A DNA stretch of 24,141 bases from a virus. Within the stretch, counting starts at the first letter, position 1. Every line of letters starts with the position of its first letter. Below the pieces are notes generated by a model. That model did not search any database, was not told the DNA's origin, and saw only the letters and a program-made list of their open reading frames with translations. The translations under genes were made by a program, and so were the position numbers. Positions 18,775 through 21,278 of this stretch are shown here, in pieces. The DNA is taken from the IMG/VR virus record IMGVR_UViG_3300037189_000872, positions 1-24,141 of that record. One strand, written 5' to 3'.

Positions 18775-18933
18775 TTATACTTTTTTAGCTGCGTTGTTTT
18801 TAGCTTTGTACATTGCAAATGCTTGTGATTTCTTAGAAGCTGGATTAGCTTTACCCATACCATTACCTGCTTTAGGTTTGATAGAAGTTTTAACTTTCTT
18901 GTTTGGTAGTTTTAAACCTGAACCTGATGCCAT
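18775..18933 (-). CDS. Small basic protein (52 residues)
   Basis: Short open frame with ATG 18931-18933 and TAA 18775-18777: MASGSGLKLPNKKVKTSIK, then KAGNGMGKANPASKKSQAFAMY and a Lys/Ala end. About a quarter of residues are lysine. It belongs to the run of small basic genes between the zinc-ribbon gene and terminase. The motif NPASKKSQAFAMYKAKN hints at a conserved family, which I cannot name. No function can be assigned; DNA binding or packaging in the virion is possible from charge. Confidence 0.6.
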   Translation of the reverse strand: MASGSGLKLPNKKVKTSIKPKAGNGMGKANPASKKSQAFAMYKAKNNAAKKV

Positions 18934-18934
18934 G

Positions 18935-19072
18935 TTATTTTCCTTTTTTCTTAGTTAGTTTCTTTTCTGCTTTCTTTTCTGCTACTTCTTTCTTCTTGCT
19001 TTCAGTCTTTTCATGCTTTTTCATAGCAGTCTTAGACTTATAAACCTCTTTACCTTCTTTAATCATTGCCAT
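18935..19072 (-). CDS. Very lysine-rich small protein (45 residues)
   Basis: ATG 19070-19072, TAA 18935-18937. 18 of 45 residues are lysine (EKTESKKKEVAEKKAEKKL), predicted as one amphipathic basic helix. The ATG overlaps the stop of the DUF6496-like gene as TAATG, and the next start follows its stop by one base. This tight linkage is the main reason to call it a gene despite its low complexity. Confidence 0.55.
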   Translation of the reverse strand: MAMIKEGKEVYKSKTAMKKHEKTESKKKEVAEKKAEKKLTKKKGK

Positions 19073-19230
19073 TATTTCTTAGCCTTTCTTTGTTCGCTAA
19101 GAGCAATCGCAATAGCTTGCTTTTGGTTAGTAACTAATTTACCCTTTTTAGATCCTGAATGAAGTTTACCTGATTTCCATTCATCCATTACCTTTTTAAC
19201 TTTTGTGTTTTTAGTAGGTTTCTTATTCAT
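19072..19230 (-). CDS. DUF6496-like small basic protein (52 residues)
   Basis: ATG 19228-19230, TAA 19072-19074. The stretch KVMDEWKSGKLHSGSKKGKL followed by QKQAIAIALSEQRKA matches the DUF6496-type sequence (VMxEFKxGxLHSGSKxGxxVxxRKQAIAIALSEAxKA) common in bacteria and phages, without a known function. The whole conserved block is present, so the gene is probably intact. Neighbours overlap it downstream as TAATG. Confidence 0.75.
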   Translation of the reverse strand: MNKKPTKNTKVKKVMDEWKSGKLHSGSKKGKLVTNQKQAIAIALSEQRKAKK

Positions 19231-19232
19231 GA

Positions 19233-19385
19233 TTAATTTTTTTTCGCTGTTTTAGCACTCTGTTTAAACGCTTTTGCTGTAGGAGCACCTTTCGTTCCCA
19301 CCTTACGCATCTTCTCACCTGAACCAGCCTTAATCCTAGCACGCTTTGCATGAATGTTGGCATATAGTCCTTGTTTAGTAGACAT
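19233..19385 (-). CDS. Conserved small basic phage protein (50 residues)
   Basis: ATG 19383-19385, TAA 19233-19235. MSTKQGLYANIHAKRARIK, then AGSGEKMRKVGTKGAPTAKAF and KQSAKTA. I recognise this pattern (GLYANIHAKRxRIKAGSGEKMRxxGxxGAPTxxxFxxSAKTA) as recurrent in aquatic phage genomes; no function is known to me. The ATG overlaps the stop of the upstream gene as TAATG. Confidence 0.75.
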   Translation of the reverse strand: MSTKQGLYANIHAKRARIKAGSGEKMRKVGTKGAPTAKAFKQSAKTAKKN

Positions 19386-19561
19386 TACTTAAAGCTCTTG
19401 AGAGTCTTAGCTAAGTTAGCACGTTTACCTAATGTGCCGCCTTTTTTAGCAGCTGCATTTAGTTTCTTTGCTGGGATTTTTTCACCTTTTTTAACACCTA
19501 ATTCTTTTTTAAGTGCACCTTTGTTTTTAATTGCACCAGCGATCCAGTTTTTAGTAGCCAT
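19385..19561 (-). CDS. Conserved small basic phage protein (58 residues)
   Basis: ATG 19559-19561, TAA 19385-19387. It starts MATKNWIAGAIKNKGALKK, continues ELGVKKGEKIPAKKLNAAA, and ends TLGKRANLAKTLKSF. The KNWIxxAIKxxGALxxxLGVxxGEKIPxxKL ... RAxLAxTLKxF order recurs in small phage and bacterial proteins, from memory, and may be a DNA-binding helix bundle. The start is one base after the next gene's stop, and its stop is coupled to the following gene by TAATG. Confidence 0.7.
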   Translation of the reverse strand: MATKNWIAGAIKNKGALKKELGVKKGEKIPAKKLNAAAKKGGTLGKRANLAKTLKSFK

Positions 19562-19783: not shown

Positions 19784-20173
19784 CTATTTTAAAAATCTTA
19801 GTTTATATAATGTTGAGTCACATAGATCAGCTATGGGATCAATCAATGTTTGTAGTTCTGAATCTTGTGGTAACTTATCTCGTAGTTGTTTTACGTTGTT
19901 AGCAAAATCTTCTATCTCAGCTACTGGATCTGACTTAGGCGGTGCATAAGCATCTGGGAAGTCCATGATCTGACCATACTTACCCATGTATGCTTCTATA
20001 AAGTCATCCGTTAAATCTTGAAGGCTATCATAAAAGCTACCTAATGCTTTGTGTTGCGAATATGACTTTGAACTCCAATGGAGTAAATGAGTATTAGTTA
20101 CTTCATGTAAGCACATGAGAGCAAATATACTTGCTACCTTGTCATCACTAACGTCATTCTGAAATGGTGTCAT
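19784..20173 (-). CDS. DUF5856 / ferritin-like small protein
   Basis: 129 residues. The N-terminal helix pair contains FALMCLHEVTNTHLLHWSSKSYSQHKALGSFYDSLQDLTDDFIEAYMG. The arrangement LHW with H32, H41, a following Y and acidic residues at D51-E60 is that of the DUF5856 family, reported in phages, which resembles the metal-binding helix of Dps/ferritin-like four-helix bundles. The second half (VAEIEDFANNVKQLRDKLPQDSELQTLIDPIADLCDSTLYKLRF) forms the remaining helices. Metal binding and DNA protection are thus plausible, not demonstrated. It begins 20 bases inside the end of the zinc-ribbon gene. Confidence 0.6.
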   Translation of the reverse strand: MTPFQNDVSDDKVASIFALMCLHEVTNTHLLHWSSKSYSQHKALGSFYDSLQDLTDDFIEAYMGKYGQIMDFPDAYAPPKSDPVAEIEDFANNVKQLRDKLPQDSELQTLIDPIADLCDSTLYKLRFLK

Positions 20174-20300
20174 CTTCGTTTTCCTCTACAGGCTCAGGCT
20201 GTAGTTTAATGTATCTGCGATCATATTGACATTCTGGACAAAAGTCATACCCTGTGGAGTCAAATGGATCACCGCAGGAAGTACACACAGATATTTTCAT
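20154..20300 (-). CDS. Small zinc-ribbon protein, first late gene
   Basis: 48 residues, ATG 20298-20300, TGA 20154-20156. Four cysteines in two CxxC pairs (C6-C9 and C21-C24: SVCTSCG and FCPECQYD) form a classic zinc ribbon, followed by an acidic tail (EPVEENEDDT). It is the first gene after the putative late promoter and leader hairpins. No strong ribosome binding site is seen; the AGGCTT of the hairpin's descending arm lies about 10 bases upstream of the ATG, so translation may depend on the leader structure. Function unknown; small zinc-ribbons in phages are often regulatory. Confidence 0.7.
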   Translation of the reverse strand: MKISVCTSCGDPFDSTGYDFCPECQYDRRYIKLQPEPVEENEDDTISE

Positions 20301-20301
20301 A

Positions 20302-20346
20302 TAAAAAGTTAAGCCTCACACAAGGAGAGAGGTTTGTGCAAGGCTT
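20302..20346 (-). terminator. Leader hairpin with T-run (intrinsic terminator, likely antitermination target)
   Basis: Arms AAGCCT (20311-20316) and AGGCTT (20341-20346) pair, then a 2x2 internal mismatch, then CACAA (20319-20323) with TTGTG (20334-20338), loop of 10. Reading the minus strand, the hairpin is followed by AACTTTTTAT, a T-run, and then the zinc-ribbon ATG. The T-run is separated from the stem by three bases, so efficiency may be moderate. Confidence 0.6.
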
Positions 20347-20369
20347 GGGAGGGATTCTTTACGTTTCTT

Positions 20370-20387
20370 TGGGCAACACTCTGCCCA
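20370..20387 (-). promoter_or_regulatory. Short hairpin near the start of the leader RNA
   Basis: TGGGCA (20370-20375) and TGCCCA (20382-20387) form a perfect 6-bp stem with a 6-base loop. If transcription starts near 20391, this hairpin occupies roughly bases +5 to +22, where promoter-proximal pausing takes place at lambdoid late promoters. It could equally be a 5' stabilising hairpin. Confidence 0.45.
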
Positions 20388-20397
20388 CATAGTCGGT

Positions 20398-20406
20398 ATT
20401 ATACCA
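20398..20406 (-). promoter_or_regulatory. Extended -10 promoter, probable late promoter
   Basis: The minus strand reads TGGTATAAT: a perfect -10 hexamer (20398-20403) with the extended TGn element immediately upstream. No consensus -35 is present at 17 bases, as is usual for extended -10 promoters. It lies 26 bases after the stop of the Q-like gene and ahead of all late genes. The start site would be near 20391, giving a leader of about 90 bases. Confidence 0.6.
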
Positions 20407-20431
20407 CAAGTGACTCTCTTTTCGCCAGCAT

Positions 20432-20764
20432 TTATGCGTGTATGTGCCTTGAAGCCATTGTTAGAAGATTATCGTATGCCATATCTAATTGCCATTCATA
20501 AGCTATTGGAGGCTTTTCTTTTAAGTACTTAGCTAATATAGCTTGCTTTTGTCCATCTGGTAAATTTTCAAATATGATTGTATGCACAATTTTTATATTA
20601 GATTTGTCCATAGCATTAACCATGTGTTCAAATTCATCCTCTGTAGATTCTCCACCAGATGACATTCCTAAAGATTTGCTAGGATAATTAAGACGATGAT
20701 CTAATGCTTTCATAGATCTTTTCCAATCATCTAGGATTGATAATAAACGTTCCATTGTTATCAT
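20432..20764 (-). CDS. Q-type antitermination protein-like (putative late regulator)
   Basis: 110 residues. MERLLSILDDWKRSMKA, then LDHRLNYPSKSLGMSSGGES, then NIKIVHTIIFENLPDGQKQAILAKYL. This resembles the small Q-type late regulators (Phage_antitermQ / ArpU-like group): a tryptophan helix, a tyrosine-proline-serine segment, and a helix pair with LPxxQxxxIxxxY similar to sigma-like helix-turn-helices. I name it on that weak likeness plus strong context: it is the last early gene, follows NinB and nuclease genes like lambda Q, and is immediately followed by an extended -10 promoter and a leader terminator. The ATG overlaps the preceding stop as ATGA. It could instead be an unrelated small regulator. 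Confidence 0.5.
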   Translation of the reverse strand: MITMERLLSILDDWKRSMKALDHRLNYPSKSLGMSSGGESTEDEFEHMVNAMDKSNIKIVHTIIFENLPDGQKQAILAKYLKEKPPIAYEWQLDMAYDNLLTMASRHIHA

Positions 20765-20880: not shown

Positions 20881-21278
20881 ATTCCTACCTTCACTCCTTC
20901 TGAACCTATTGCACTTTCACCAAATGAATCTATTGTTACATTGTGTCGTAAATTATGTTTGGTATCTTTTTCTGTGTATGTATGCGTTTCTAGTATTTTA
21001 TCTTGAGGTATATTTAAATTGTGATTAAAGATTTCATCTAGTGGATGTCGTTTAGGTTTGTAATATTTGTATAGTTTTTTACCAGCATCATTGTATAACA
21101 ATCCTTCTTGCACCAATTCCATGAGAGGATATTTTAAATCATACTGGTGAACCCTAATTATAACAGCAAGCTGCACAGATGTTTTAATGTCATCACCTAT
21201 GACTTTCATAATCTCTTGTTTTAAATACTTTCTTTTATCAGCTTGTGTTAAGTGATCTAGTGATAATTTAGGATACAT
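20877..21278 (-). CDS. Predicted winged-helix DNA-binding protein
   Basis: 133 residues. Residues about 10-70 read as a winged helix: KRKYLKQEIMKVIGDDIKTSVQLAVIIRVHQYDLKYPLMELVQEGLLYNDAGKKLYKYY, that is helix, helix, recognition helix, then a beta wing ending in a K/Y-rich strand. The remainder is polar and has no recognised domain. It sits in the early operon just before the Q-like gene, suggesting a regulator of early or late transcription, or a replication accessory factor. The pattern is visible; the role is inferred. It overlaps the 39-residue gene as ATGA. Confidence 0.55.
   Translation of the reverse strand: MYPKLSLDHLTQADKRKYLKQEIMKVIGDDIKTSVQLAVIIRVHQYDLKYPLMELVQEGLLYNDAGKKLYKYYKPKRHPLDEIFNHNLNIPQDKILETHTYTEKDTKHNLRHNVTIDSFGESAIGSEGVKVGI

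Follow-up and report, generated by a model that had tools for sequence, protein, structure and literature searches.

The late genes of phage lambda are preceded by the gene for the antiterminator Q, the late promoter PR' and a long terminated leader, in that order, and the locus described here is laid out by the same logic. Phage HK022 has, in the description drawn on here, an antitermination-linked RNA element, put, at the start of the transcript; it acts without a phage protein, unlike the hairpin considered below, which is coupled to a Q gene. The antiterminator 21Q has a fold like that of sigma region 4 (sigma-R4) with an added helix, and its published description includes a Q gene, a promoter (21PR') and a leader terminator ahead of the late genes, a direct-repeat binding site that lies upstream of the start, and a pause sequence resembling a -10 element (PMC6606751). 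AlpA of Pseudomonas aeruginosa is likewise a small Q-like antiterminator, with a promoter followed by an intrinsic terminator, and can be likened to our locus by layout; the sections of its report used here place its site between -35 and -10 and set lambda Q in a different protein family (PMC9371919). In Gifsy-1, the Q-like gene antQ precedes isrK, of which a short terminated form acts in trans, and the antQ-isrK-isrJ region resembles our locus in that a Q-like gene is followed by a short terminated RNA, as far as the portion of the report used here describes it (PMC4825925).

We analysed a 24,141-nucleotide stretch of viral DNA (IMG/VR record IMGVR_UViG_3300037189_000872, positions 1 to 24,141), hereafter the window, from what looks like a small freshwater phage, and found in it a region that resembles an on-switch of late genes. 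In our judgement it is quite probably a compact Q-type switch, in which a promoter-proximal hairpin most likely forms part of the Q-loading signal. Unlike 21Q, the window switch has a conserved block, with the hairpin, downstream of the predicted start, and its leader is only about 90 nt long. What is new here is a hairpin unit that accompanies a putative Q family across distant phages; a literature search found no published description of the late leader.

Organization of the locus

Read directly from the minus strand, the locus consists of a 110-residue ORF, an extended -10 element, a hairpin, AAAGAAACGTAA, a terminator and the ATG of a 48-codon ORF. A preliminary description of this DNA had proposed the layout of regulator gene, extended -10, hairpin, terminator and late genes and had placed it correctly. 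The gene for the putative Q-type antiterminator (20432..20764, minus strand, like all features given here) is followed after 25 bases, not the 26 given earlier, by the predicted promoter of the late operon, TGGTATAAT (20398..20406), which has a perfect extended -10 and a weak -35. Its TG.TATAAT element is conserved in the leaders of both groups of relatives described below. Two exact copies of TGNTATAAT are present on the window's coding strand, one at the late promoter and the other within a gene, at 21165. At the 5' end of the predicted transcript a hairpin, TGGGCAG-AGTG-TTGCCCA (20370..20387), lies where it had been reported, with a stem of 7 bp in the predicted fold instead of 6. It runs into AAAGAAACGTAA (20359..20370), the first A of which is also paired within the stem.

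The leader terminator (20303..20346) comprises a 13-bp stem (20346-20311) and a T-run (TTTTT, 20307-20303), carries CTCTCTCC in its loop (20324..20331), and is directly followed at 20300 by the ATG of the first late gene (20154..20300), whose 48-residue product is zinc-ribbon-like, with weak zinc-ribbon matches that all fall below cut-off. As RNA, the leader folds at -26.7 kcal/mol (z -3.3), a value that none of 200 shuffles reached. Of the 9 terminator-like hairpins on the window's coding strand, that of the leader ranks first by a wide margin (-16.1, the second having -7.5). A generic scan of the window for promoters and terminators listed neither the late promoter nor the leader terminator, because the terminator loop exceeds its limit and the -35 is weak. 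From the leader downstream to the window end, all large ORFs lie on the same strand.

The 110-residue protein and its relationship to 21Q

The window protein has no match to any Pfam, PHROG, NCBIfam or PDB sequence model, whereas a relative with 67% identity (L013) passes the Pfam Phage_antitermQ model PF06530 with 26.7 bits against a cut-off of 26, a margin of 0.7 bit; the earlier reading as a Q-like gene is supported through this relative and not by the window protein itself. PF06530 is found at E <= 1 in 6 of the 14 members of our profile set A1, and L013 is also a weak match to phrog_79 ('anti-termination protein Q-like'). The family is large, with 119 relatives in the first scan of viral contigs, 80 of which were kept. 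Homologues in phages MW202481 and Venkman carry an antitermination-protein annotation, and a remote one, 29% identical, is present in EBPR podovirus 1. Among genome contigs, a scan with profile A1 gave 73 candidates, none of which was confirmed, and no Q-family match was found in 369 genomes of the class of G026. Further protein scans used the Venkman, ctXG6705, EBPR and L288 Q proteins as queries; the L288 query recovered only itself.

Two AlphaFold2 models (pLDDT 79.7 and 79.4) predict a helix at the N-terminus, then a disordered segment and, towards the C-terminus, a helical part with a putative sigma-R4-like helix-turn-helix (HTH), an arrangement that may resemble that of 21Q; the disordered segment, at about residues 22-44, is the presumed ring segment and has low model confidence (residues 23-44). 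The best VIA structural match is chain 6p18_Q of the 21Q loading complex (Z 6.6, 97 residues, rmsd 5.5), and for the second model, built from a second alignment, 6p19_Q (Z 5.8) shares first place with sigma-E region 4. All VIA Z scores are below 8, and Foldseek found no match in the PDB at E <= 0.001. Given that 21Q itself is built like sigma region 4, its chains and the sigma-E neighbours point the same way, but with modest scores.

The same likeness could also indicate that the protein is an ordinary activator or a sigma-region-4-like factor and that the terminator merely insulates early from late transcription. Sigma-E region 4 is among the best folds, the C-terminal half resembles sigma region 4 (with weak PF08281 matches in L082 and L203), and phrog_248 ('transcriptional activator') weakly matches L012. 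We regard this as unlikely: in the published account as used here 21Q is itself sigma-R4-like (PMC6606751), the promoter and terminator remain together in the loci that have the module, and, with a terminator between the promoter and the first late gene, an activator alone would still meet it.

Conservation of the leader in related phages

Leaders were gathered by a regular expression, which gave 307 raw sequences, 227 with TG before the -10 and 109 that were unique; after one false Venkman leader was dropped, 55 of the window type (group 1) and 53 of the MW202481 type (group 2) remained. Non-redundant subsets at 90% ungapped identity comprised 17 and 21 leaders, respectively, and alignments were made of 19 group-1 sequences and of 20 of the 21 group-2 representatives. 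The conserved promoter-leader that the preliminary description proposed to look for in related phages was recovered: under one relaxed definition, the module of promoter, 5' hairpin and terminator is present on the sense strand in 77 of 80 group-1 and 71 of 80 group-2 Q loci, against 7 of 80 and 2 of 80 on the antisense strand. Two of the three group-1 misses are contig ends (L059 and L064), and the third (L004) has the leader with a longer loop; nine of the 80 group-2 loci gave no match to this definition. Under a strict pattern, the leader is found once in each of the 7 group-1 and group-2 records of at least 35 kb, with one further, unrelated match in G004; this pattern also found G011 and missed G012. 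Together with the sequence family, the predicted fold and the gene order, the conserved promoter-terminator leader supports the reading as a Q-type late switch.

In nine of nine loci with a gene inserted behind Q (L016, L017, L033, L047, L049, L056, L057, L068 and L197), the leader lies beyond the insert, directly ahead of a typical first late gene. As the leader stays with the late genes past these inserts, it is to be counted with the late operon, on which Q would act in trans. The inserts themselves are by eye DNA methyltransferase-like, with an SPPY/DPPY-like motif, except for a different gene in L197. None of the 27 Venkman-type loci has such a leader beside Q; in Venkman, Q is situated among the early genes, and transcription of the late ones would begin at another place. 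Upstream of the Venkman late operon there is TGATATAAT, followed about 150 nt on by a hairpin with TCTCTCAC and a T-run, an arrangement that is only suggestive as a counterpart of the leader. A region of about 350 nt before these late genes (L083 354-1, minus strand, continuing at 38624) is 90% identical in G008, with a conserved hairpin AAGC-TCTCTCAC..-GCTTTT. Two features of group 2 were seen in passing, namely that the -35 TTGACA of the late promoter overlaps the Q stop codon (CTTGACA; L203-L278, for example just after L271 5324), and that leaders L224, L233, L245 and L273 have two terminator-like hairpins in tandem.

The 5' hairpin is conserved and is the most informative element. The promoter spacer holds 0.66 bits per position against 0.96 in the transcribed leader in one comparison, and 0.72 against 1.70 in the other. 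In group 1 the hairpin is stable (z < -1 in 15 of the 17 non-redundant sequences); a change in one arm is matched in the other (GGGCA/TGCCC, GGACA/TGTCC), G-U pairs also occur, and the AACGTAA that follows is conserved. The group-2 hairpin, of about 4 bp, is no stabler than shuffles (z < -1 in 3 of 21), and the pair of columns 12 and 22 covaries (GC 14, AU 4, AC 2). A CGTA-like motif keeps a constant spacing from the -10: counted to its CG, the offset is 32 in 53 of 53 group-2 leaders and 33-34 in 48 of the 55 from group 1, an earlier CG having apparently been taken by the regular expression in the other 7. RNAalifold detected almost no structure in the group-1 MAFFT alignment, because the loops differ by one base and the pairs are misaligned, and pairing was judged instead from per-sequence folds and arm lists. 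The terminator stem likewise shows compensated changes, at most pairs, among 20 distinct group-1 terminator segments, and all 55 unique group-1 leaders carry the same CTCTCTCC in its loop, with a related CTCTCC in group 2. As a side observation, the Rfam algC RNA (RF02929) aligns weakly to the hairpin and AACGTAA of the window (20359-20402, 12.2 bits) and of L285 (3087-3127, 14.7 bits; cut-off 33.8), and STnc420 also aligns to L285.

The finer details of the proposed likeness to lambda could not be demonstrated. The first transcribed bases of the group-1 and group-2 leaders gave no consistent -10-like pause hexamer (mean shuffle P 0.69 and 0.23) in a test that is insensitive, since lambda's own element scores only 1.61 in it; the scoring used the customary -10 base frequencies. 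By sequence conservation, no conserved Q-binding site was seen between -35 and -10 in the spacers of either group. The lambda start region reads AACGAT at what we take to be +1.

The hairpin unit occurs beside distant Q genes

Between the Q gene and the small terminase gene, EBPR podovirus 1 has TTGACA-17-CAGAAT, GGGCAGAGGTGCGCCCAAAGA and then a terminator. Given this module beside a Q of only 29% identity, we searched viral contigs with the hairpin DNA alone. The first pattern, GGGCAGAGN{2,8}GCCCAAAGA, matched 22 loci, seven of which had a promoter-like stretch and a terminator (L280, L285, L288, L292, L296, L301 and L302). In all of these except L296, a Q-family ORF on the same strand ends 43-203 nt upstream of the motif. 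L280, L292 and L302 are of types already known; the others had E-values of 8.2e-26 (L301), 6.5e-20 (L288) and 2.5e-15 (L285) against a Q profile built without the new proteins. A profile search of 102 loci, 80 of them from the genome scan described below, gave nothing below E 1 beyond the six Q-family ORFs, each of which had E 2.5e-15 or better. Compared with 400 random positions, the promoter score had P values of 0 for the window and L302, 0.002 for L285 and L288, 0.005 for L301 and 0.008 for L296, and of 0.125 and 0.815 for two chance genomic matches to the motif. By eye, both L285 and L301 have terminase and portal genes downstream, and in L288 the contig runs out shortly past an HNH-like ORF. 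L296 has motif, promoter and terminator and no significant Q in the profile search; its upstream gene resembles that of L457, by eye only.

The second pattern, GGGCAN{4,6}TTGCCCAAAGA, matched 49 loci in viral contigs, 10 with a Q (E < 1e-3) at most 400 nt upstream, to which L457 (E 0.0018) can be added; none of the other 38 has a Q within that distance. All 11 Q-bearing loci have a terminator, and they comprise 8 of the window clade, L285 from the first search and two new lineages, L449 and L457. The E-values of the latter two come from HMM A8, which included L285, L288 and L301 and neither L449 nor L457; over L285, L288, L301 and L449 the Q ORFs range from 8.2e-26 to 9.5e-5, and L457 is weak; in these five loci the ORF stops 43-203 nt before the motif. 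AACGTAA follows the hairpin in L449, as it does in L285. The downstream genes of L449 are by eye lysis-like and not terminase, and its promoter score within the allowed distances is poor (P 0.3). In genome contigs the motif had at least 119 matches, which by our own arithmetic is about the chance expectation or fewer, with no Q in the 80 loci listed; among the 369 genomes of the class of G026 there were 2 matches, neither with a promoter or terminator.

Both patterns recovered phages that Q similarity had missed. The hairpin therefore appears to be part of the switch. The hairpin can serve as a DNA signature that finds late switches and antiterminators where protein similarity nears its detection limit.

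A hairpin beginning a few nucleotides from the predicted start, with group-1 stems that vary yet stay paired, might also do nothing other than shield the 5' end of a long late mRNA from degradation, unrelated to Q. This we consider improbable, as such a role has no need of a recurring stem and flank (GGGCA....GCCCAAAGA, AACGTAA) common to distant phages, the hairpin is coupled to one protein family, and group 2 retains the sequence block with only a weak stem.

A possible small-RNA role for the leader

The leader, of about 85-90 nt, could instead be mainly a stable trans-acting small RNA, whose exposed CUCUCUCC loop would pair with GGAGAG ribosome-binding sites of early genes. It has the form of a 5' hairpin and a 3' terminator hairpin, the loop of the latter being invariant in 55 of 55 group-1 leaders where the stem pairs vary, and GGAGAG precedes ATG in 24 of 432 early against 0 of 257 late ORFs in group 1, and in 19 of 417 against 0 of 143 in group 2. 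There is precedent in IsrK, beside antQ in Gifsy-1, as presented in the cited part of that report (PMC4825925), and the leader of the distant L296 resembles the small RNA isrJ. However, many of the GGAGAG sites lie by eye within the conserved C-terminal coding stretch of an upstream helicase gene, early ORFs from related phages do not count as independent cases, the group-2 motif is outside the terminator loop, and this reading leaves unexplained why the leader should follow Q and open the late operon. We give little weight to this as the main function; a small-RNA role may be additional to the switch.

Rfam 15 found no family at gathering score in the leaders of the window, L285, L288, L296, L301 and L302. 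The isrJ consensus (RF01393) shares a 5' hairpin, an A-rich stretch and a terminator with these leaders, and aligned at full length with L296 at 29.4 bits (E 5.4e-4) and with L285 at 17.9 bits, both below its gathering score of 37; the window leader did not match it. At E <= 10, 12 of 14 control genomes also gave isrJ matches, all of them below its cut-off, and the terminator accounts for much of what L296 scores, so the isrJ likeness is a lead only. DNA like the L296 leader gave only short matches in phage records, all to its terminator part; 2 of the 22 matches were inspected, and neither lies at a recognised Q junction.

Proposed mechanism and implications

In the Q-type switch that we favour, host RNA polymerase would start at the extended -10 promoter, near 20391, and produce a short leader that begins with the hairpin and would ordinarily stop short of the first late gene, at the terminator. 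The 110-residue Q, supplied by the early operon, would load on the polymerase near the promoter, and the Q-loaded polymerase would then pass the leader terminator and allow expression of the one-directional late region. By analogy with 21Q and AlpA, Q would constrict the RNA exit channel and thereby keep hairpins from forming. The promoter-proximal hairpin, with AAAGAAACGTAA, is most likely part of the Q-loading signal, as a pause or as a recognition element. An A-rich stretch and a CGTA-like step about 8-11 nt past the hairpin would suit a hairpin-stabilised pause. The preliminary description had called the hairpin pause-like; its conservation is evident from the leaders, and that it causes a pause is an inference. 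The hairpin could act as an RNA pause, a DNA site, a stability element or a small RNA. A leader peptide (ATG TGG GCA... from about +1) with attenuation by translation is very improbable, as the 24-codon frame, open by eye in the window, lacks its start codon in many relatives and has, by eye, an early in-frame TAA in the commonest group-1 leader.

More speculatively, and with clearly less confidence than in the switch itself, a whole class of Q proteins might load via a promoter-proximal hairpin, GGGCA-loop-TGCCCAAAGA, often with AACGTAA next, either as nascent RNA or as DNA and beside or instead of a lambda-type pause. Such a hairpin would mark late promoters across quite different hosts, and isrJ-like small RNAs would be terminated leaders, which suggests an origin for some prophage small RNAs. 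A hairpin element may in this way be added to a mechanism that has been described around a sigma-dependent pause.

The presence of one leader and no other strong terminator fits the earlier proposal that one antitermination event would control the late region in its entirety. The portal protein of the window matches portal family phrog_1216 and is closest to that of MW202481 (63.5% identity), followed by Methylophilales phage Venkman (56%), by which a Methylophilales host may be presumed. The switch would predict when abundant freshwater phages that are uncultivated, probably those of Methylophilales, turn on their late genes. Close to the start of the late operon, the window also has a gene of the DUF5856/phrog_858 family (19784-20173), the family label of which is starvation-inducible regulator, and, directly ahead of the packaging genes, a series of lysine-rich genes, all very short and on the late strand (18775-19561).
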